Assembly: GCF_016755875.1 (NCBI RefSeq) | Contig: NZ_BNED01000010.1 | Coordinates: forward strand, 1-18,263 | Length of the DNA: 18,263 bases | DNA from: Streptomyces spororaveus | Lineage (GTDB): Bacteria; Actinomycetota; Actinomycetes; Streptomycetales; Streptomycetaceae | Direction: 5' to 3' | Part shown: piece by piece, positions 2-16,641 of the stretch | Layout: every line of letters starts with the position of its first letter | Numbering within the stretch: the first letter of the stretch is position 1 | Program-made: the position numbers and the translations under genes | Notes under the pieces: generated by a model | Databases searched by the model: none | What the model was told of the DNA's origin: nothing | What the model saw: the letters and a program-made list of their open reading frames with translations, nothing else

Positions 2-2014
2 CCGGCCGACCAGCCGGACCTGCCCACGCAATTTCGCCGCCTCGGCCAAGCGGCCGCCCTGACCTGGGCCCTGGCCGGCCGCGACATCCACCTGGGCAAT
101 ATCGTCCTGTCGGACAGCGCCCTACACATCATCGACGAGGAGGTCTTCGGCCTCGGCGTCGTCACCGACAACCCGGCCCTGCCGACCCCCCTCCGCGAAG
201 AGCTCAGGTTCTTCGAATCCTCGCCCGTCCACACCGGCGTCTTCCCCTACCTCACCCCGCTCCCCGGCAGGGAGAGCGGCATCGATTTCTCCCCGTACAG
301 CAGGCTGCGCGCCGCACTCACCCCGGCCCGGCCTACCCCGACGGGGCCGCAGGAGCTGCTGGACGCTGATGCTGTTGCATTCCTGCACGGCTACGAGGAG
401 ATGCTCCAGGCCTTCGGAGACGTCTCAACCCACAACCGGGCCTTCCGTCAGCAGGTCGAGGAATTGACTGGCGAACGCTGCCGTCTGGTCCCGCTGCCCA
501 CGGCCCGCTACGGTGAACTCCTTGCCCAGAGCCTGACGGAGGAACGCCTGGCCTCCGGCAGCGCCCGCGAGTCGTTCTTCACGGAGCAACTGCACGCCGA
601 CTCGGCTTTCAAACCATGGCGTGGACCGCTCGTCCCGGAAGAATCCGCGGATCTCTTCGACGGCGATGTCCCCCTGTTCCATGCCCCGGTGGACAGCCGC
701 CTTGTCCGCGGCCTCTCCAGGAACGCGCACGCCCTGCTGGACCATACGGGGGCCACGGTTCTGCAGCACCGCACGGCCCGCCTCGCCGTCGAGATGCCGG
801 CACTGCTCTGGCAGGCCACCGCCTCTCTGGAATGTGCTGCCCGTAACCGCGGTCAGCGGCTGGCCGCGCAGTCCGGTCTCACCGCCACCACTGCCTCGGC
901 GGACCCCGGACTGTGCGTGGACGCGTCCCACACCCTTCTGTCCCGCCTGCGGGATCTGGCCGTCCAGACCCTGGACGGCCACCTCGCCTGGGCAGACGTC
1001 CGACACGACATGCGCCGCAAGTGGCACATCGGGCACGCCGGTACCAGCATCCGCTCCGGATCCTCCGGCATCCTTCTGGCCTCACTCCTGCTGCGGGCCG
1101 TTCCCCAGACCCGGTTGGCTACCACCGCCGACGACCTCACCTCCCTCCTTGCCGACCCATGGCTCGACGAGACGGAACAGCTCACCCAGGACGAGGGCGT
1201 CTATGTTCTCAGTGAGTTGTGCGAGCGGCTCCTGGTCGCCACCGAACTCCTGCACCGCACCGCCGGTCCACGGACGGAGCCCGTTCTCAGAGCGCTCCTC
1301 TCCGCGATCAGGCGGAGCCTGCCCTACCTCAAAAGCCACCCCGACCAGGACATCGCCCCCGCACTACTGGCACTGGCAGCCGCTGCAGGCACCCTGCCCG
1401 CCGGCCACCAGGACTCTGTGCAACGCCTCCTCCAACAGTTCGATGACGGCTCCACAGAGCTCCCCCGTACCTATGACGCCCTCCTGGCCCGCCACCTCAT
1501 CGCGCGCCGCTTCCCCCACCTGCCCCTCCTCCAGCCCGGAGACACTGCTGTACCGAACGTCTCCGCGTTCTTCCCGCCCTGGATCAGCGGAGCCTTCCCC
1601 GAGCACGCCGCCCGGCTCGTCCTTGCCGAGACAAGTCCTCGGTACGCCGACATCACGGCGGACATCGTCGAGTCCCTGCGCGTCACGACGGAGCACAACC
1701 ACGGCCTGGCCAACGGCACAGCCGGCCGAATCAGCCTCCTGACGCTGTTGGGGGAAAGCAAGCAAGCTGCCCTGCTGGCCACGCAACTGGCCACCCTTGT
1801 CCTGGCTCCCGACTCGCGCAACCCGGATCGAACATTCGATCCTGCCGCACGTCCGGGCCTGCTGACCGGCATGGCCGGTACCGCCTACGAGCTGGCACGC
1901 AGCGCCAGCGGCGGCCACCTCCCGTCGCTTCTGCTGCCTGCCGGTCTGGCCACCGGACCTGCCGCCCAGAACAGCCCTCCTCACCTCCCGCGCACGGAAG
2001 AGAACCACCGATGA
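2..2014 (+). CDS. LanM-type class II lanthipeptide synthetase, 5'-truncated, with degenerate cyclase domain
   Basis: The frame is open from base 2 to the stop at 2012-2014 (about 670 residues), so the N-terminus lies upstream of the window and the internal ATG at 401 is not the start. LanM enzymes phosphorylate Ser/Thr of a precursor peptide and eliminate phosphate, then a LanC-like domain adds Cys thiols to form thioether rings. Codons 28-33 read DIHLGN, the DxHxxN catalytic motif of the dehydratase, followed by IIDEEVF. Codons 161-167 (RLVPLPT) match the R...T pair used in elimination. The C-terminal half resembles LanC (HGLANGTAG, PGLLTGMAGTAYEL), but the zinc motifs are changed: WCxG is WISG, LCHG is LANG, and the upstream His motif has Arg/Ser. 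I therefore read an active dehydratase with a cyclase that probably cannot bind zinc. The stop overlaps the next gene's start by ATGA, implying coupled translation. Family sure; loss of cyclase activity inferred. Confidence 0.85.
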   Translation, partial: PADQPDLPTQFRRLGQAAALTWALAGRDIHLGNIVLSDSALHIIDEEVFGLGVVTDNPALPTPLREELRFFESSPVHTGVFPYLTPLPGRESGIDFSPYSRLRAALTPARPTPTGPQELLDADAVAFLHGYEEMLQAFGDVSTHNRAFRQQVEELTGERCRLVPLPTARYGELLAQSLTEERLASGSARESFFTEQLHADSAFKPWRGPLVPEESADLFDGDVPLFHAPVDSRLVRGLSRNAHALLDHTGATVLQHRTARLAVEMPALLWQATASLECAARNRGQRLAAQSGLTATTASADPGLCVDASHTLLSRLRDLAVQTLDGHLAWADVRHDMRRKWHIGHAGTSIRSGSSGILLASLLLRAVPQTRLATTADDLTSLLADPWLDETEQLTQDEGVYVLSELCERLLVATELLHRTAGPRTEPVLRALLSAIRRSLPYLKSHPDQDIAPALLALAAAAGTLPAGHQDSVQRLLQQFDDGSTELPRTYDALLARHLIARRFPHLPLLQPGDTAVPNVSAFFPPWISGAFPEHAARLVLAETSPRYADITADIVESLRVTTEHNHGLANGTAGRISLLTLLGESKQAALLATQLATLVLAPDSRNPDRTFDPAARPGLLTGMAGTAYELARSASGGHLPSLLLPAGLATGPAAQNSPPHLPRTEENHR

Positions 2015-3513
2015 ACAGCGGCGAAACCGTCCGGGCCTATCACGAATGGACCAGCAACAGCACCGGCCCCATCCATCGCCGCCCACCACGGCCGGCCGAG
2101 TACATCCAGCTCGACCCGGACCGTGAGCCGCCCCCCTTCAAGCGTTACCCGGACTCCGAACTCCACCCTCTGCCCGTCACCGCTCCCATGCCAGGACCGG
2201 CCGCGACGGACGCCCTGGCCGGCCTCACTGTCCCAACCGAGCACCCGGTCGACCTCACGCTGCTCTCCCGGATCCTGCGTCTTTCCTTCGGAATCACCCG
2301 CAGCTCCCGGCGCCACGGCCGCACAGTGAACTGGCGACCCGCTTCTTCCGCTGGCAACCGCCATCCCCTCGAGGCGTACGTCGCCACCGGACAAATCGAC
2401 GGCCTCGCCGCCGGGCTCTATCACTACGCCCCGGAGGCCGGTGCCCTCGAACAGCTTCTCGACGGCGACCAACGCAGCGTTGTCGCCGGAACCGCCGACA
2501 CTCCTGCAACGCAGGCGTTCATCATCCTGACCGGCCTGCCCTGGCGGACCGCGTGGAAATACGCCGAACGGGGCTGGCGCCATGTGTACTGGGATGCTGG
2601 CACCGCCCTCGCCAACCTGTTGACTCTGGCCGAAGCGCATGGCTTGCAGGCACGGCTCCACTTCGGCTTCGACGACCAGGCGCTCAATCGGTTTCTCGAC
2701 CTCGACGGCCGTACCGAATTTCCCCTGTTGATAGTGGCACTGGGCGGTTCCTCCACAGCACACACCCACGCAGCAGCAGCACGCAACCAGGAGCTGCCTA
2801 CGCCTGCCGAGCCACCGTCCGCACCCATTGAATTCCCGCTCGTCACCGTTGCCCAACAGGCAGGGAACCTCTCCGGCAACTCAGAGGTGCGGAAATGGCG
2901 CAGCACGCCCGCAGGAGACGCTACCCACCCGTGCGGGGCAGTCGAGCCCGCGGCCCATCCGCACAGCGGGTCGATCGAAGAACTCATCCTGCGGCGCGTC
3001 ACCACCCGCCGCATGGACCCTGTGACGGTTTCACAGCAACTGCTGAGCTGGGCCATGCAGTGCGCCACCCGCCCCGTCTCCATGGACGCCGTCTCCACCG
3101 GCCATACGCTGATCACCCCAGACCTGTCGGTGCACGGCATCGCAGACCTAACTCCCGGTGTCTATCGCTACCGCAACGGTCAATTCAAGGGGCTCAGCCT
3201 TCTGACCGAGCCGCAGGCACGTGCTCAGGCCACCGGTCTCTGCCTGGATCAGACAGTCGCCGGAAATTCTGCTTATACCCTTTTTGTCACCACTGACCTT
3301 GAGAGCCTGCTCCAATCATGGGGGGACCGCGGCTACCGCATGGCTCAAACCGAGGCCGGCATTGTCGTAGGGCGCCTGCAACTTGCCGCCGCAGCAATGG
3401 GCTTCGGCGCCTCCGGACTCACGTTCTTCGACGACGCAGTGGCCGATGCTTTCACCACACACCGAAGCGCCATGCTCGCCTGCGCTGTGGGAGTTCCTCT
3501 GCGCCACCCCTGA
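2011..3513 (+). CDS. SagB-type flavin-dependent peptide dehydrogenase, tandem nitroreductase domains
   Basis: This 500-residue protein has two nitroreductase-fold domains, as in ThcOx/SagB enzymes that oxidise azolines to azoles in RiPPs using FMN. Domain 1 (about 85-245) shows ITRSSRR, the SSAGNRHPLEAYV segment at 112-124, the GLYHY turn at 135-139, and WKYAERGWR at 182-190. Within the last, K183-Y184 matches the Lys-Tyr pair known to be catalytic in azoline dehydrogenases. FGFDDQALNRFL and a final VALG complete the domain. Domain 2 (about 318-497) has RRVTTRRM, RGYRMAQTEAG and GFGASGLTFFDD. Residues 250-317 are a low-complexity linker. The gene is ATGA-coupled to the LanM-like gene and is probably the last of the operon, since a hairpin follows. 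No YcaO cyclodehydratase is visible, so the substrate could be azolines made by upstream enzymes, or another oxidisable or reducible residue such as a dehydroamino acid. Family confident, substrate unknown. Confidence 0.85.
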   Translation: MNSGETVRAYHEWTSNSTGPIHRRPPRPAEYIQLDPDREPPPFKRYPDSELHPLPVTAPMPGPAATDALAGLTVPTEHPVDLTLLSRILRLSFGITRSSRRHGRTVNWRPASSAGNRHPLEAYVATGQIDGLAAGLYHYAPEAGALEQLLDGDQRSVVAGTADTPATQAFIILTGLPWRTAWKYAERGWRHVYWDAGTALANLLTLAEAHGLQARLHFGFDDQALNRFLDLDGRTEFPLLIVALGGSSTAHTHAAAARNQELPTPAEPPSAPIEFPLVTVAQQAGNLSGNSEVRKWRSTPAGDATHPCGAVEPAAHPHSGSIEELILRRVTTRRMDPVTVSQQLLSWAMQCATRPVSMDAVSTGHTLITPDLSVHGIADLTPGVYRYRNGQFKGLSLLTEPQARAQATGLCLDQTVAGNSAYTLFVTTDLESLLQSWGDRGYRMAQTEAGIVVGRLQLAAAAMGFGASGLTFFDDAVADAFTTHRSAMLACAVGVPLRHP

Positions 3514-3586: not shown

Positions 3587-4033
3587 GGTCTCCGAAGTGT
3601 CGGCCAGGAAGCTGGCCACAGCCGCCGTTCCATCGGGCGTCAGCTCCACATGACCCACCGCACCGTCAAGAGCCGCGCCGACGTTGCGAAGCCGGAAGAC
3701 CTCTTTCGCGGCCAGTGGCAGCACGACAGGACCTCCGTCCTCGACGAGTACAAGCCCTACCTGGACGTACGTTGGGACAAGGGCTGCACCAACGCCAGGA
3801 AGCTATGGGAGGAGATCGTTCCCTTGGGCTACCGAGGCAGCTACGGCCGCGTCAGCGCCTACCTGCGAGAAAAGCGCACCTCACCACGGCCGGTCGCCGC
3901 GCAACCGCCGGCACCCCGCGTGGTGACGATATGGATCCTCAGCCGACCCGAGACACTGACCGAGATCGAACAGCTCCGGCTCTGTGGACGTTCGCGTAAT
4001 TCCCCAGGTGCCCGTCTGGCTGGGGGCTGGTGA
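3587..4033 (+). pseudogene. ISL3-family transposase, N-terminal fragment
   Basis: The frame opens after a stop at 3584-3586. It reads a helix-turn-helix segment (GHSRRSIGRQLHMTHRTVKS), then YKPYLDVRWDKGCTNARKLW and GYRGSYGRVSAYLREKR, then RVVTIWILSRPETLTEIEQLRL. This order matches the N-terminal part of actinobacterial ISL3 transposases, which would continue for several hundred residues with the catalytic domain. Here similarity stops near 3983 and an unrelated tail runs to TGA at 4031-4033. No good start codon precedes the HTH; the ATG at 3650 lies inside it. I call it a truncated relic, cut at both ends, with no recognisable inverted repeats. It lies just beyond the RiPP operon terminator. 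Confidence 0.75.
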
Positions 4034-4503: not shown

Positions 4504-5373
4504 GTGGGGCGAGGGGATCTTTCTGACGAGCAGTGGGCGGTGCTGGAGCCGTTGCTGCCGGTGGCGGTGGTGGGCAGGCGGTCGCTGGGTCGGCGGAAGC
4601 TGATCGACGGCATCCGGTGGCGGGCACGGACTGGTGCTCCGTGGCGGGATCTGCCACTCGAATACGGGCCGTGGCAGACGGTCTACGGACTCTTCCGCCG
4701 CTGGCAGCGCGACGGGATCTGGCACTTGCTGCTGACCCGGCTGCAGGCTCAGGCGGATGCAGCCGGGCTGATCACGTGGGAGATCAACGTCGACTCCACG
4801 ATCTGCCGGGCCCATCAGCACGCCGCAGGCGCCCGCCGCGACGGACAGGCCCAGAAGGAACCGCCTGGCGGAACCCGCACCGAGCCCGACGACCACGGCC
4901 TGGGCCGGTCCCGGGGAGGTTTCACCACCAAGATTCATCTCGCCTGCGAGCAAGGCCAACGGCCGCTGTCCTTGCTGGTCACCGCAGGTCAGCGTGGTGA
5001 CAGTCCTCAGTTCGCCGCTGTCCTGGAAGGCATCCGAGTCCCTCGCACCGGACGAGGCCGTCCCCGTGTCCGGCCGTTGCGAGTGCGGGGCGACAAGGCG
5101 TACTCCTCCCGCGCCAACCGAGCCTACCTGCGGAAGCGGGGAATCCGGTGCACGATCCCGGAGCCTGCCGACCAGGCCGCCAACCGCAAACGGCGCGGGA
5201 AGACCGGCGGGCGGCCCCCGGCTTTCGACCGCGAGGACTACAAGGCCCGGCACGCGGTCGAGTGCGGGATCAACCGGCTCAAGCGCAACCGGGCGGTCGC
5301 CACCCGGTTCGACAAACTCGCGGTCCGCTTCGAGGCCACCGTCCTGATCGCCGCGATCGGCGAATGGCTATGA
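4504..5373 (+). CDS. IS5-family (IS427 group) DDE transposase
   Basis: A 289-residue transposase starting at GTG 4504. The N-terminal DUF4096-like region ([48 protein letters not shown]) is followed by an RNase H-fold DDE domain. The catalytic acids are D97 in [12 protein letters not shown]197 in VRGDKAYSS and E253 in [15 protein letters not shown]; the last also holds the K/R signature. [17 protein letters not shown] and GQRGDSPQF are typical for the family. The protein ends in AAIGEWL, the usual C-terminus, and all catalytic residues are present, so it is probably functional. It lies between perfect inverted repeats; 71 bp separate it from the passenger gene on the same strand. Confidence 0.95.
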
Positions 5374-7221: not shown

Positions 7222-7689
7222 TTAGCGGCGGCGGCCCCAGGTCTCGGTGTCGACGGTGCGGCCGCGGTCATCGCGCAGCGTCGCGGTGTCGGAGCCGTTG
7301 TCCCAGACGTAGTTACGGCGGTCCTGGAAGAGGTCGGTGCGGGTGTCACGGCCGTTGCCGGTGTGGATACGGATCGTGGCACGGGGGGCGATGCGGACGT
7401 TGTCGAAGCGGTAGCGGTTGCCGTCGCTGTCACGCAGCGTCCAGCCGCGGAGGCTGATGCCGTCGCGGGTGGTGTTGGTGATCTCCACCCACTCCGAGTT
7501 GAGGGAGCGGTTCGAGCGGTCGTCGCGTCCGGGGCTGTCGGCCTGGACCCGGCTGATCTCCACCCGCGGCCGCTGATGGTGACGGTCACCGTCGTGCGCG
7601 GCCGCCGGCAGAGCGGCGGCACCGACGACGGCGCCGGCGGCCAGGACGGTGGCGGCGATACGGCGTACGGAGGAAGAAGCAGAAGACAT
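7222..7689 (-). CDS. Secreted lamin-tail domain protein
   Basis: ATG at 7689 has a good Shine-Dalgarno (GAGGGAG, 8 nt upstream), which decides the start over a longer in-frame extension. The 155-residue product begins with a Sec signal peptide: SSVRRI, then a hydrophobic Ala/Val/Gly core ending ALPAAAH with probable cleavage after AAA. A lamin-tail (LTD) beta-sandwich follows: VEISRVQADSPG, NSEWVEITNTTRDGISLRGW, LRDSDGNRYRF, IRIHTGNGRDTRTDLFQ, YVWDNGSDTATLRDDRGR, VDTETWGRRR. LTD domains in secreted bacterial proteins are thought to bind nucleic acids, proteins or the cell surface; the exact role is unknown. It is the typical small extracellular Streptomyces form and is transcribed alone with its own terminator. 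Confidence 0.85.
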   Translation of the reverse strand: MSSASSSVRRIAATVLAAGAVVGAAALPAAAHDGDRHHQRPRVEISRVQADSPGRDDRSNRSLNSEWVEITNTTRDGISLRGWTLRDSDGNRYRFDNVRIAPRATIRIHTGNGRDTRTDLFQDRRNYVWDNGSDTATLRDDRGRTVDTETWGRRR

Positions 7690-8099
7690 AGGTGACGCTC
7701 CCTCAAGAACAGCGCCCCACCAGCCGAAACAGGTCGGTGGAGGCCTTTGCGGTGTCGGCCCGGTCGAGCCGAGGGCCACACTCTCGACCCGACACGACCC
7801 CCACCGCACCCCCCGCAGACGCCGGTTACCGGACACGGACATATCCGTCACAGTCGCCTGCACACCGCACGCATTCCGTCCGAGCGTGCCCCTGACATTC
7901 ACTGACAGCTACACCCACCCGCCCCACAAACCGGACATCAAGGTCGACAGGCTCCGGCGCACTACCGGGCGCAGTCTTCCGCCGCTTCACCCGGCCGGAC
8001 CAGTGGATCAAGTAACAACCGTTCTGCGGAATTCTTCGCACGTGCGCCCGCAATTCGGACATGAGTCCCGTCCTGTGGCAGGCCTCGCGCCCCTCGCCG
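7690..8099. other. Intergenic region upstream of the lamin-tail gene
   Basis: It holds the Shine-Dalgarno and presumably the promoter of the minus-strand lamin-tail gene, and the 3' flank of the gene ending at 8100. I could not identify a convincing -35/-10 pair, tRNA or ORF. The 8-bp palindrome GCACGTGC near 8038-8045 is the only compact dyad noticed. Confidence 0.4.
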
Positions 8100-8873: not shown

Positions 8874-9566
8874 CTACGGGGCGAGGGTGAACTCCACATC
8901 CGTGCCGCCACAGCCGGCCGCGATGTCGAACAGCCGATCCCGCTCCGCCTCGTCGACCGCCAGGCCCCAACGCAGCTTGGTCGCGGTCCACTCCGCGCCG
9001 TACCGGCACAGCGCGTCCGGCGCCGGCGGCAGCCACTCCGCCGGATCCTGGTCCGCCTTCGACCGGTTCGAGCGGGCCGTCACCGCGACCAGGGAGGCCG
9101 CCTGGCCCTGGTCGTTCGCGTAGGCTTCGCGCCTCTGTGCGGTCCACGAACTGGCGCCCGAATCCCAGGCCTCGGCGAGCGGCACCATGTGGTCGATGTC
9201 CAGCGCACCGGCCGGGGTCACCTCCCGCTCGTCGTAGTACGACCACCAGGTCCCGCCGGTCAGGGTGCAGCCCGGCCCGATCTCCGGATACACGATCGCC
9301 TCGGCCAGAAGCACCTCCTGGCGGGTGTTGCAGCCGTCCGCCGGGATGTCGCCGGCGTTCCAGTGCCGGAACGAGGTGCGCTGATAGCCGGTCCGGTCCT
9401 CGGTGGCGAGCGGCAGCGCGGACACCGCGACCCCGATCGGCAGAACCTGCGGCACGACCGCCACGGCCGGAGCTGGGCCGGCGGGTTGGGTGGCCGCGTG
9501 CGCGGCCGTGGGCAGGGTCAGGGCAAGGGCGGCGGCCGCGACAGCGGACCGCTTCAAGATCATCAT
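8874..9566 (-). CDS. Secreted HNH-family endonuclease (DUF1524/GmrSD C-terminal-like)
   Basis: From ATG 9566 the product has 230 residues: a signal peptide (MMILKRS, then an Ala/Leu core ending TAAHAA) followed by an HNH domain. Key motifs are ALDIDHMVPLAEAWDSGA, carrying the first catalytic D-H pair, then YANDQ, LVAVTARSNRSKADQDPAEW (the second N/K part), and CRYGAEWTATKLRWGL near the C-terminus. The paired Cys (CNTRQE, GPGCTLTGG, ALCRYG, AGCGG) suit an extracellular, disulphide-stabilised protein. Streptomyces exports such nucleases, probably for DNA scavenging or degradation during development. Starts at GTG 9587 and ATG 9563 are alternatives; none has a clear Shine-Dalgarno, and a 9-bp hairpin abuts the chosen start. 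A perfect palindrome lies about 70 bp upstream. It appears monocistronic. Confidence 0.85.
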   Translation of the reverse strand: MMILKRSAVAAAALALTLPTAAHAATQPAGPAPAVAVVPQVLPIGVAVSALPLATEDRTGYQRTSFRHWNAGDIPADGCNTRQEVLLAEAIVYPEIGPGCTLTGGTWWSYYDEREVTPAGALDIDHMVPLAEAWDSGASSWTAQRREAYANDQGQAASLVAVTARSNRSKADQDPAEWLPPAPDALCRYGAEWTATKLRWGLAVDEAERDRLFDIAAGCGGTDVEFTLAP

Positions 9567-9586
9567 GGGCCGGTTGTACCGGCCCA
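9566..9586 (-). promoter_or_regulatory. Hairpin abutting the HNH start codon
   Basis: A 9-bp stem with a 3-nt loop (centre GGGCCGGT/ACCGGCCC) reaches into the ATG at 9564-9566. In mRNA it would occupy the ribosome binding region, so it may limit translation. If translation starts at GTG 9587 instead, the hairpin is coding. Confidence 0.35.
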
Positions 9587-9633
9587 CGCACCGTCACCAC
9601 CAGGCCCCGGAGCGCGGTTCACCCGGCCGGGGA

Positions 9634-10505: not shown

Positions 10506-11528
10506 TCAGCCCGTGGCGGCCGCCCCATGGCCGAACTCGGGAACATCGTCAAGGGTCGTGTCCAGGCGCAGCCGCTGGAAGCGCAGCGGGTGGCGGTAGA
10601 TACCTCCGTGGTCGATGGCCCGGTCGGCGCTGACCTCGGCAACCACGGTGGGGTTGACGAGGGTGGTGTCGAGGACGTCGCGGCTCCCCCACGCCGCCGA
10701 GAACTTCGCGCCCGTCCACGGGTGTCCGGGCGCGGCCGCGGTGAGGTGCTCGGCGACCTGGCGGGCGGCGTCCGGGCGCAGGGGTACGGTCCGGCCGACC
10801 GGACGCAGCCGGCCGTCGTGGTCGTGGCGGCCGAGGACGAGGAGGCCGGGGCGGGTCAGGGTGCCGGTGATCGCGCCGACGATCATTTCCGTGGTATCCC
10901 GCCTCCGGATCTTGGTCCACCCCCGGTATCCGGGCAGGTAGCGGCCGTTCAGGGGCTTGACCAGGATCCCCTCCACCCCGGACACGTCCGTCCAGGACTC
11001 CAACCACTCCCGTGCTGTGGCCAGGTCCGTCGTCTGCGGGACGAGCGTCCACGGCGCGCTCAGGGCGTGCTCGGAGAACAGGTTCTCCAGCAGGGCGCGC
11101 CGCTCGACGTACGGAAGGGTGAGGAGCTCCTGGCCGTCGTGCTGCAAGAGGTCGAAGGCGACGAAGTAGGACGGCCACCGGGAGGCGAGGACGGCGGCGC
11201 CGCGGGCGCGGGTCGCGGCCCGGCGCTGCAACGCCTCGAACGACAACCGGCCGGCCTCGATGTCCCAGACGACCAGTTCGCCGTCGAGGACCAGGCCCTG
11301 CGGCAACTGCGCCTCCGCAGCCGCCACCAGGTCCGGCCAACGGTCCTGCACCAGCGCCCCGCGCCGGGTCTGCACCACCACCGCGCCACCCGGCCCGGAC
11401 GCGGTGAACAGCAGCGCCCGGTGACCGTCCAGCTTCTGCTCGTACGCCACCCCCGCCCGCACAGCGGCCGGGCCCGGCACGGCCTCCGCGGCGTGCGCCA
11501 GCATCGGCTCCACCGGCGGCCTGAGCAT
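10506..11528 (-). CDS. ATP-dependent DNA ligase
   Basis: ATG 11528 is preceded by GGAGG at good spacing, giving 340 residues; an in-frame extension to 11597 lacks support. All nucleotidyltransferase motifs are visible: motif I YEQKLDGHRA, with K of KLDG as the adenylated lysine; motif III LVLDGELVVWD; IIIa YFVAFDLL; IV VEGILVKPL; V GWTKIRRRDTTE. An OB-fold follows, with ITGTLTRPGLLVLGRHD and FSAAWGSRDVLDTTLVNPTVVAEV. It seals DNA nicks through a covalent ligase-AMP. Streptomyces carry several such short stand-alone ligases (LigC/LigD-ligase-domain-like) used in end joining or repair; no Ku or polymerase partner is in the window. The gene is monocistronic and convergent with the small membrane-protein gene. 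Confidence 0.92.
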   Translation of the reverse strand: MLRPPVEPMLAHAAEAVPGPAAVRAGVAYEQKLDGHRALLFTASGPGGAVVVQTRRGALVQDRWPDLVAAAEAQLPQGLVLDGELVVWDIEAGRLSFEALQRRAATRARGAAVLASRWPSYFVAFDLLQHDGQELLTLPYVERRALLENLFSEHALSAPWTLVPQTTDLATAREWLESWTDVSGVEGILVKPLNGRYLPGYRGWTKIRRRDTTEMIVGAITGTLTRPGLLVLGRHDHDGRLRPVGRTVPLRPDAARQVAEHLTAAAPGHPWTGAKFSAAWGSRDVLDTTLVNPTVVAEVSADRAIDHGGIYRHPLRFQRLRLDTTLDDVPEFGHGAAATG

Positions 11529-11621
11529 CACGAGGACCTCCCTCACGGCGTGCGCGTCCCCCTTCCAGGGTCCGACAGACCAGCCGGAGGCGACCACTCG
11601 CGCGTGATCAAGTTCGCCGGG

Positions 11622-12098: not shown

Positions 12099-12631
12099 TG
12101 ACCTGTCTCAGCGAAGTTTGGTGAGTCTCATCGAAGTGTGACCATCAGGGTGGAGCGGTTTGTCCTGGCCGGGTACAGACGTCATGATCGCGGGATGGCT
12201 GAAGAGATGGTTGTCGAGAAGACCTGGCGGCTCATGCTGGAGGGGCATCCCACGGCGCGACGGGGAGAGCCCGCAGTCATAGAGGCCGCCTATGCCGAAC
12301 CTCGGCTGCGGGCCTTGTTCCCGTTTCCGAGCCACGGGGCGCTCACCTTTCACCGCAACACGCAGTTCCCATGGAGCAACGACCTGCCGTTCATCGTCGG
12401 CGACGCGCAATCGTGCATCGTGTACGCGCCACTGGGTGCGTCGCCGCGTGTCTTGGGCGAGTCACTCACACCGAATGAGGCGGCCGCGTTGGTGGTGGCC
12501 CACCTGCCGCACGACTGCGGGCCAGCCTTCGATGGACCGTGGCCCCCAGCGGAGAGCTCCACCAACTGAACCAGCCGCAAGGCAGCAGCCGCCGTTCCGG
12601 TCAAACTTCGATGAGACGGGTCAACAGGACA
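12099..12631 (+). mobile_element. Second inverted-repeat cassette carrying a DUF6193-like gene
   Basis: GTCTCATCGAAGTGTGACC at 12125-12143 and the reverse complement of 12599-12617 agree at 18 of 19 positions. A diverged copy of the left unit lies immediately outside it (12105-12124, 20-bp period). Outer ends TGACCTGT (12099) and, in reverse complement, TGTCCTGT (12631) are similar. The layout mimics the neighbouring cassette, only four bases away. The exact borders and a target duplication are not clear, so the limits are approximate. Confidence 0.5.
12195..12569 (+). CDS. DUF6193-like protein, 124 aa
   Basis: From ATG 12195 the product reads VVEKTWRLMLEG, then the hallmark VIEAAYAEPRLRALFPFPSH and GALTFHRNTQFPWS, then a middle IVGDAQSCIVYAP, and LTPNEAAALVVAHLPHDCGP near the end. 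The EAAYAEPxLRxLxPFxSHGALxF pattern and the closing T-x-EAxxLVVxxLP helix match the DUF6193 family of Streptomyces, sometimes labelled natural-product related but with no shown activity. A GTG at 12138 would add 19 residues; neither start has a strong Shine-Dalgarno, and I prefer 12195 because similarity begins there. The gene is bracketed by the 19-bp inverted repeats, suggesting it is cargo of a transposable cassette. Confidence 0.75.
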   Translation: MAEEMVVEKTWRLMLEGHPTARRGEPAVIEAAYAEPRLRALFPFPSHGALTFHRNTQFPWSNDLPFIVGDAQSCIVYAPLGASPRVLGESLTPNEAAALVVAHLPHDCGPAFDGPWPPAESSTN

Positions 12632-14667: not shown

Positions 14668-16641
14668 TCATGTCTGCACGGCATACAGCATGTTGGACCC
14701 GTCGGAGAGGTACGCGACTCCGTCGGCGACCACCGGCGAGGACGCCGGGCTGTTACCTAAAGGGTGGACCCAGTGCTGTAGCCCGGTATCCGCCTGCAAC
14801 GCGAAGAGCTGAAAGCCGAAGGCGACGTAGACGATGCCGTTGGCCACCACAGGCGAGAGCACCTCATTCAAACCGATTTCGTAGGACCAGCGTTCGCGTC
14901 CCGTGGCCGCATCAACCGCATACAGCTTGGGCATCACGTCCCTATCTGTGATTTTCGCGACCCTTGCGCTTGCGAGGTAGACGATGCCATTGGCCACCGC
15001 TGGCGACGAGCGCAAGCGGGCCTTGGTGTGGAATGACCAGCGCTCCCGCCCGGTATCCGCGTCCACCGCGTGGAGCTTGCCGTTGTCACTGCCGACGTAG
15101 ACGACGCCGTCGACCACCGCAGGCGACGAGCGCACCTTCCTGCCCGTGGCGAAGGACCAGCGCTTCTCGCCGCTCCTCGCGTCCACCGCGTACAGCCCAC
15201 CGTCGTCACTGCCGAAGTACACGATCCCCTCGACCACCGTCGGCGACGAGCGCACCATTCCACCGGTGGTGAACGCCCAGTGGGGCTCCCCGGTTTCCGC
15301 GCTCACGGCATGGAGCCCGCGGTCGTCGCTGCCGACATAGACGACTCCGCCGACCACCGCAGGCGACGAGCGCACCGTTCCACCGGTGGTGAAGGACCAG
15401 CGCTTCTCACCCATCCTCGCGTCCACCGCGTACAGCCCACCGTCGTCACTGCCGAAGTACACGATCCCCTCGACCACCGCCGGCGACGACCACGCCCTGC
15501 CGCGGGAGGTATAGACCCAGCGCTGCTCCCCACTCGTCACATCCACCGCATACAGGGCGCCGCTGCTGCAGTAGACCAGGCCGTCGGACGCGGCTGACCC
15601 CCGGTACCTCTCCCTAGGGGTGGCCCAAAAGCCCGTGGGGGTGCAGGCGTAGGACCACTTCCTCGAACCGCGTAGGCGCCGGCCGGGCCCCCCAGGCACG
15701 GTGGCCCGTGTGTCCGGCACGGGCGAGGGGGGATCGTTCCGCTGAACGAGCTGGGCGATCTGGTCAGGCATCCAGCTTGGCTCTGTGAGCAGAAGTGTGG
15801 GGCGGAGGGGCTGCCCCTTTCCGTCCTTGCCGCGAGAGCCGGTCAGCTGGTCGAGCAGTGTGGCCACGGTCGGACGCTGATCGGGCTCCTTGGCCAGGCA
15901 GGCGGCGACGACATCACGAAGTTCACCAGGGAGGGCATCAAGGCTGGGCTCTTCCTGGACGGTACGGATGCACAGCGCGGTCGAGCTGCCAGAACCGAAC
16001 GCGTTGACGCCAGTGGCCGTGTAGGCCAAGACCGCTCCCAGGGCAAAGACATCGCTGGCCGGGGTCACCGCCCGGTCGAGGAGCTGTTCCGGAGACATGT
16101 AGCCGGGGGTGCCGATCAGCACGCCGGCCCGGGTCAACGTACTGGCCTCCATGGCGACCGAGATACCGAAGTCGATGATCCTCGGTCCGTCCGCGGCGAG
16201 AAGCACATTGGACGGCTTGAGATCACGGTGGATGACCCCGGCCGCGTGGATGACCTCGAGTGCCTCAACCATGCCAGCGGCCAGGTCGAGCACCGAGTGA
16301 AGTGGCCATGGACCGTGAGCGGCGAGTGCCTCACCGAGGGAGGGGCCCGGCACATAGACGGTCGCCATCCAAGCTGGCGAGCCGTCCGGGTCGGCGTCGA
16401 TCACACCGGCGGTGAAGGCGCCATTGACCCGTTGAGCCGCCGTCACTTCTCGCTTGAAACGTCGCCGGAACTCGCCATCCCCAGCCAGCTCCGGACGCAC
16501 TACTTTCACGGCAACCGGGCGCCCGCCGGGCGAGCGCCCGAGGTACACCCGGCCCATTCCTCCGGAGCCCAGACGCGCCACGATCTTGTAGCGCCCCACC
16601 TGCTGCGGGTCCTCCGGGCCCAATGGGTCCAACGCTCCCAC
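14668..16641 (-). CDS. Serine/threonine protein kinase with PQQ-type beta-propeller (AfsK-like)
   Basis: GTG 16641 has a Shine-Dalgarno (AAGGGGG). The 657-residue protein starts with a Hanks-type kinase domain (about 17-268): glycine loop LGSGGMGRV (24-32), VAVKVV with K46, HRDLKPSN (138-145), DFG (157-159), GTPGYMSPE (177-185) and SDVFALG. All catalytic residues are present. A Pro-rich linker (about 280-325) leads to repeated blades of about 40 residues (SSPAVVxGxVYxGSDxGxLxAVDxxxGxxxWSF), the PQQ/YWTD-like propeller, running to the C-terminus. No membrane helix is seen, so it is cytoplasmic or peripheral. Kinase plus PQQ propeller without a membrane segment is the AfsK layout of Streptomyces, in which the kinase phosphorylates AfsR and affects secondary metabolism; whether this paralogue does so is unknown. 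It is flanked by a promoter and a terminator, so probably monocistronic. Confidence 0.92.
   Translation of the reverse strand: MGALDPLGPEDPQQVGRYKIVARLGSGGMGRVYLGRSPGGRPVAVKVVRPELAGDGEFRRRFKREVTAAQRVNGAFTAGVIDADPDGSPAWMATVYVPGPSLGEALAAHGPWPLHSVLDLAAGMVEALEVIHAAGVIHRDLKPSNVLLAADGPRIIDFGISVAMEASTLTRAGVLIGTPGYMSPEQLLDRAVTPASDVFALGAVLAYTATGVNAFGSGSSTALCIRTVQEEPSLDALPGELRDVVAACLAKEPDQRPTVATLLDQLTGSRGKDGKGQPLRPTLLLTEPSWMPDQIAQLVQRNDPPSPVPDTRATVPGGPGRRLRGSRKWSYACTPTGFWATPRERYRGSAASDGLVYCSSGALYAVDVTSGEQRWVYTSRGRAWSSPAVVEGIVYFGSDDGGLYAVDARMGEKRWSFTTGGTVRSSPAVVGGVVYVGSDDRGLHAVSAETGEPHWAFTTGGMVRSSPTVVEGIVYFGSDDGGLYAVDARSGEKRWSFATGRKVRSSPAVVDGVVYVGSDNGKLHAVDADTGRERWSFHTKARLRSSPAVANGIVYLASARVAKITDRDVMPKLYAVDAATGRERWSYEIGLNEVLSPVVANGIVYVAFGFQLFALQADTGLQHWVHPLGNSPASSPVVADGVAYLSDGSNMLYAVQT
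15061..15540 (-). repeat. Tandem 120-bp repeats with a 240-bp superperiod in the propeller
   Basis: Blade-encoding units recur every 120 bp. Units two apart are much closer than neighbours: 15181-15240 and 15421-15480 differ at one base in 60. The blades alternate YFGSDDGGLYAVDAR and YVGSDxxxLHAVxA forms, an ABAB order that suggests duplication of a two-blade block. Confidence 0.8.

Follow-up and report, generated by a model that had tools for sequence, protein, structure and literature searches.

A LanM-like enzyme without zinc ligands, encoded beside a SagB-type dehydrogenase in a putative cysteine-free RiPP cluster of Streptomyces

In this study, we analyzed a stretch of 18,263 bases (the window), which is the whole of contig C10 of a genome of 8.86 Mb in 10 contigs. 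We consider it likely that part of a cysteine-free RiPP cluster lies here, in which a LanM-like enzyme only dehydrates Ser and Thr without forming thioether rings, and in which the LanC-like half of this enzyme is kept for structure or substrate binding. The dehydratase residues are complete throughout a small family of homologues, the zinc ligands are gone in all its members with a complete C-terminal half, and the candidate precursor encoded with the enzyme has no Cys.

Results

The LanM-like gene is complete in the genome and coupled to sagB

The features of the window, all on the + strand, are as follows.

2-2014, +: LanM-like protein, residues 251-920 of 920 (DUF4135 match, overlap with contig C4, identity to P0001)
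83-100, +: kinase motif D278-I-H280-L-G-N283 (CylM D347/H349/N352), placed by mapping on CylM, invariant in 7/7 members
482-502, +: elimination residues R411 and T417 (CylM R506/T512), placed by mapping on CylM, role as described in PMC4550811
872-2011, +: LanC-like half without zinc ligands, residues 541-920
995-1069, +: family-specific invariant stretch D582, D586, R588, R589, H592, H595, G597-S599, S602-G603, S605-G606 (five complete members)
1580-1591, +: degenerate first zinc site W777-I-S-G (WCxG in ordinary LanM), MAFFT alignment
1706-1717, +: degenerate second zinc site L819-A-N-G (LCHG in ordinary LanM), MAFFT and HMMER alignments
2011-3513, +: SagB-type flavin dehydrogenase with two nitroreductase stretches (TIGR03605, 140.7 bits, cut-off 78.4; PF00881, 88 bits)

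The LanM-like ORF of 670 aa lacks its 5' end here, as the window is the whole contig and begins inside the gene. Contig C4 (24,910 bases) starts with the DNA of the window in reverse orientation, with an exact overlap of 1,723 bases, and encodes residues 1-824 on its minus strand (positions 1-2472). A complete copy of 920 aa, P0001, is present in the protein collection (source contig of 37,933 bases); it is the window's own protein and was not counted as an independent homologue. Since the full enzyme can be read from C4 and P0001, the gene, which the first-pass annotation had called intact, is so in the genome, though its 5' part is cut off in the window. The coupling to the next gene, also claimed there, was borne out by a stop codon that overlaps the SagB start in ATGA at bases 2011-2014.

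The second gene belongs to the SagB family, with a TIGR03605 score over the cut-off, and its product carries K183-Y184, which we take to be the K-Y pair that typifies azoline oxidases. Its position next to the LanM-like gene was seen directly in this genome only; the homologue P0004 ends in MNSGKTARA, much as SagB in the window starts with MNSGETVRA, which hints indirectly that a SagB gene may follow that of P0004 too. Just downstream of SagB lie an IS21-like transposase remnant (3650-4033, 28.4 bits, under the cut-off) as well as an IS5 transposase (4504-5373, 250.7 bits), which probably mark the downstream border of the cluster. Elsewhere, a SagB homologue with 37% identity directly follows an NRPS (locus L016, genome G047, contig C1, 9257-10681).

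The remainder of the window encodes, on the minus strand, a lamin-tail-domain protein (7222-7902, 84.3 bits), a GmrSD_C/HNH nuclease-like domain protein with an N-terminal signal-like stretch seen by eye (8874-9587, 35.2 bits), an ATP-dependent DNA ligase domain protein (10506-11597, 105 bits) and a Ser/Thr protein kinase fused to a PQQ-type beta-propeller (14668-16641). A DUF6193 protein (124.6 bits) is encoded at 12138-12569.

The dehydratase half keeps all catalytic residues

DUF4135 (PF13575) was matched in all seven members of the family, with 81.5 bits for the part of the protein in the window and 192.9 bits for full-length P0001. Residues were assigned by aligning the family profile to CylM with HMMER (77.5 bits over the dehydratase part) and counting residues. 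Mutagenesis of CylM is described as linking D347, H349, N352, D364 and K274 to phosphorylation and D252, H254, R506 and T512 to phosphate elimination (PMC4550811). The equivalents of these nine residues in P0001 are D181, H183, K203, D278, H280, N283, D295, R411 and T417, all invariant in the seven members (alignment A1); D181, H183 and K203 are encoded on C4, outside the window. The DxHxxN motif and the R/T pair, read as kept in the first-pass annotation, are therefore confirmed as D278/H280/N283 and R411/T417.

These residues also bear on whether the enzyme could be only a kinase whose product keeps phospho-Ser/Thr, like EmbM in the case of phospeptin. EmbM is described as LanM-like, without a zinc cyclase domain and with a Cys-free precursor (PMC9505594), which would fit here as well, but it is also described as lacking critical elimination residues, whereas the equivalents of D252, H254, R506 and T512 are invariant in this family, and we regard such an enzyme as very unlikely.

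The LanC-like half has lost its zinc site in all complete members of a small family

Two homologue searches over 5.8 billion proteins, with about 8,000 candidates scored in each and E up to 1e-40 in the second, returned the same group: P0001-P0007 in one, and six of them together with P0012 in the other. P0012 is an ordinary LanM with 25% identity and the next scored relative outside the group, and the seven members stand apart as a separate group among the scored candidates. The named homologues come from Streptomyces. No further full family member was found in draws of 392, 395, 394 and 383 genomes, which overlap one another and include the own genome. Scores with the lanthipeptide synthetase models stayed under the cut-offs: TIGR03897 (LanM, cut-off 304) gave 219.9, 235.3 and 206.7 bits for P0001, P0004 and P0005, and NF038151 (LanKC, cut-off 575) gave 15.0 bits for P0001.

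I778 stands at the Cys position of the first zinc site and A820-N821 at the Cys-His positions of the second, and the spacing from I778 to A820 is 42 residues, all as the first-pass annotation had it. WISG and LANG share columns with WCHG and LCHG of P0012 in the MAFFT alignment, by which all three zinc ligands are replaced; the columns of CylM C911/H912 likewise hold Ala and a non-His residue in the HMMER profile alignment, in a stretch that scores only 3.4 bits, and the column of CylM C875 was placed by MAFFT alone. The ligands are absent in 5/5 members with a complete C-terminal half, the window's protein among them, and no homologue with intact ligands was seen among these five. Pairwise identity among members is 37-91% in this half and 48-92% in the dehydratase half. 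Because the ligands are gone in all complete members while the half is otherwise kept, their loss is a family trait; decay of a single copy was rejected, the loss being common to four other complete homologues.

The same recurrence answers part of the earlier proposal that loss of cyclization was selected: a loss common to other complete homologues speaks for selection rather than decay. The other part does not follow, since class III LanKC enzymes cyclize without zinc, and missing zinc ligands are thus no proof of lost cyclization. As for a LanM that is decaying and has no current function, the LANC_like score of the window protein lies under the cut-off, the two transposase genes are close by, and the C-terminal half is unreadable in P0006 and P0007, which end in frameshift-like tails (by eye). 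These tails could mean that this half is dispensable, or could be errors in those records. Against decay stand the ORF of 920 aa, the operon coupling and the conservation of both halves, down to 37% in the C-terminal half, and this reading appears highly improbable to us.

A Cys-based zinc site relocated within the C-terminal domain was also looked for and rejected, with no Cys column invariant in this half among the five complete members aligned. Two His residues, H592 and H595, are invariant in the same five, and on the alignment it is possible that they serve a different metal site.

Model comparisons touch on whether this half is instead a metal-independent cyclase like that of class III LanKC, which would close rings with a Cys-containing peptide from another locus of the genome. 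ThurKC and other class III enzymes are described as cyclizing with Ser, Phe or Asp at the zinc positions (PMC10604976), the class III model gave weak matches in 6/7 members (best E 1.2e-6; 20.4 bits for the C-terminal half in the window), and class III CuvL was the best structural match of the C-terminal half alone. However, TIGR03897, the class II model, gives this half a higher score (34.7 bits, aligning to the end of the model), none of the four candidate precursors has Cys, and a search of the own genome with the candidate precursor returned only itself and one marginal match (E 0.04). Such a cyclase is therefore unlikely in our judgment.

The cluster on contig C4 encodes a cysteine-free candidate precursor

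Seven genes form a RiPP-type cluster, ordered towards the window as precursor candidate, JmjC protein, M3 peptidase, methyltransferase-like protein, HExxH enzyme, LanM-like enzyme and SagB. The first five are encoded on C4.

C4 7509-7288: candidate precursor, 74 aa, no Cys; ribosome-binding site GGAGGAAAGG (by eye)
C4: JmjC_2 protein (PF08007, 63.7 bits, cut-off 22)
C4: M3 family oligoendopeptidase (PF01432, 49.5 bits, cut-off 27; TIGR02290, 321.9 bits, under its cut-off)
C4: methyltransferase-like protein, 243 aa, glycine motif by eye
C4: HExxH-type peptide beta-hydroxylase (TIGR04267, 55 bits, cut-off 40)

The 74-aa ORF matched no family; only its position, its ribosome-binding site and its conservation mark it as the putative precursor. 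Three homologues besides itself were found, with 74-89% identity, and Cys occurs in 0/4 sequences. The hydroxyl residues T29, T30, T41, T42 and S71 are invariant, and position 39 holds either Ser or Thr in every sequence. The homologue P0010 and the enzyme P0003 are both on S. virginiae contigs of 169,736 bases, which makes linkage of precursor and enzyme in a second genome most likely. Another homologue of the precursor, P0011 of Streptomyces sp. NPDC059176, has 99 aa and a longer tail; no LanM homologue bearing this strain name appeared in the homologue searches (about 8,000 candidates scored each). After the ORF comes a strong, GC-rich hairpin (z -3.6); as it has no T run, it was not listed by the terminator scan, and going by this consensus scan, which showed neither promoter-like nor terminator-like sites around the ORF, the hairpin is not an intrinsic terminator.

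The nearest solved relatives of the JmjC_2 protein are the histidyl hydroxylases NO66/MINA. JmjC-RRE fusions have been described (PMC12710340), and a Pfam scan of the piece at the end of the JmjC protein, where a fused RRE was looked for, was empty. The methyltransferase-like protein matched no family and no PDB sequence. Among the eight C4 proteins scanned, no match to MNIO or radical SAM families was found. A divergent MFS transporter gene is also present on C4, and close upstream of the cluster lies a gene for a DNA polymerase III alpha subunit (L007, 9558-13118, minus strand, 1,398.6 bits), possibly dnaE in a second copy, carried by a plasmid or a chromosome arm.

The first-pass annotation had suggested that another enzyme might cyclize the product; this is not needed, and neither a separate LanC-type protein nor a YcaO was matched on the two cluster contigs, C4 and C10. 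The genome holds four YcaO matches, two on C5 and one each on C1 and C2; those at C1:37946-38866 and C2:166822-167742 have identical scores, a sign that contig ends may be duplicated or that there are terminal repeats.

A distant YcaO could make oxazolines for SagB to oxidize, with the LanM-like enzyme dehydrating beside azoles, as CcaM does in the dehydrazole pathway. The K-Y pair of SagB and the presence of YcaO genes in the genome are compatible with this, and the architecture described for CcaM is of the same kind (PMC10676384). Yet none of the four YcaO matches is on a cluster contig, and dehydrazole precursors are described with a long nitrile-hydratase-like leader and a core rich in Ser, Thr and Cys (PMC10676384), whereas the candidate precursor here has 74 aa and no Cys. 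We hold this pathway to be quite unlikely.

Discussion

Compared with what characterizes a LanM, the enzyme has a DUF4135 dehydratase domain with its catalytic residues, a C-terminal LanC domain that lacks the Cys, Cys and His zinc ligands in five of five complete members, and, if the precursor is rightly chosen, a substrate without Cys in its core (0 Cys in 4/4 candidates). As zinc loss is no proof by itself, the Cys-free candidate precursor, whose assignment is putative, bears the argument. The lost metal site together with a candidate substrate that offers no cysteine for ring closure points to a probably linear modified peptide.

We have proposed a plausible model for this pathway, in which the reactions, their order and the role of SagB are what we infer from the gene content. 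The LanM-like enzyme would phosphorylate Ser and Thr of the 74-aa precursor and then eliminate the phosphate to give dehydroalanine and dehydrobutyrine, forming no thioether rings, and its LanC-like half would be a surviving scaffold, a substrate-binding part or a substrate clamp. The JmjC and HExxH oxygenases would probably beta-hydroxylate other residues, the methyltransferase-like protein would methylate, and the M3 peptidase would remove the leader. SagB would provide a YcaO-independent flavin redox step, acting most likely at dehydro residues or next to them, by alpha,beta-dehydrogenation or by reduction. The product would probably be an uncommon linear, hydroxylated dehydro-peptide.

Parts of this model have precedents. 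CcaM is described as having no zinc ligands and forming no lanthionine, yet its C-terminal half is needed for dehydration and is inactive in trans (PMC10676384); by analogy, this is the best model of why the LanC-like half is kept here. Nitroreductases not associated with YcaO are described as rare and functionally uncharacterized, and the nitroreductase domain of PflD as making dehydrophenylalanine without YcaO (PMC12636437), a precedent by which alpha,beta-dehydrogenation by SagB would be possible. Reduction of dehydro residues by SagB is also possible, without support from its family.

Further, and only tentatively, the system may represent a new RiPP class, in which a zinc-less LanM dehydrates Cys-free linear peptides, a YcaO-independent SagB acts on the dehydro residues (by reduction to D-amino acids or further dehydrogenation), two kinds of oxygenase take part, and the LanC fold with its new invariant Asp/Arg/His cluster serves as a substrate clamp. 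The principle itself is not new, as CcaM, PoyF and EmbM are already non-cyclizing LanM relatives. As far as the literature was searched, no single system combining a Cys-free candidate precursor, absence of YcaO, SagB and two oxygenases was found; the new part is thus the combination of all these with a full dehydratase set and a ligand-less LanC-like half. In this small and rare family the metal site for ring closure has been stably lost and the likely peptide has no cysteine, so the reason for keeping a LanC half can be put to the test. The cluster is also a source of a SagB enzyme that has no YcaO partner alongside it.

Several known systems share parts of this combination. Class II LanM enzymes such as CylM and LicM2 differ in having the zinc ligands that are absent here. 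In the CA_C0082 family of Clostridium, a LanM-like protein and its homologues are described as being without zinc ligands, as here, but also without the catalytic residues of the dehydratase, with 670-728 aa and a tie to Agr quorum sensing (PMC10301443). PoyF, the polytheonamide dehydratase, and EmbM, the phospeptin kinase, are likewise LanM-derived and non-cyclizing, and EmbM also acts on a Cys-free precursor (PMC9505594); both are described as having no cyclization domain, whereas the LanC-like half is kept here, as are the elimination residues that EmbM is described as lacking. The pair of JmjC and HExxH oxygenases resembles that described for biphenomycin, where it hydroxylates residues (PMC12707348), and the PflA/PosA pathways have an HExxH enzyme and a nitroreductase without YcaO (PflC/PflD, PMC12636437); these accounts describe no LanM-type dehydratase for either system.

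CcaM/LanMbC of the dehydrazoles (carnazolamide) is described as joining a DUF4135 dehydratase to a LanC-like half that has no zinc ligands, with a dehydrogenase encoded alongside and, for CcaM, a product without lanthionine rings (PMC10676384), all of which recall the present cluster. The LanC-like half of LanMbC is of class III type; the signals for the one studied here are mixed, with more bits from the class II than from the class III model (34.7 against 20.4), but with class III CuvL as its best structural match and class III model matches in 6/7 members. In contrast to CcaM/LanMbC, the present system lacks YcaO on the cluster contigs, a long NHLP leader and Cys in the candidate precursor, and it adds two oxygenases, an M3 peptidase and a methyltransferase-like gene.
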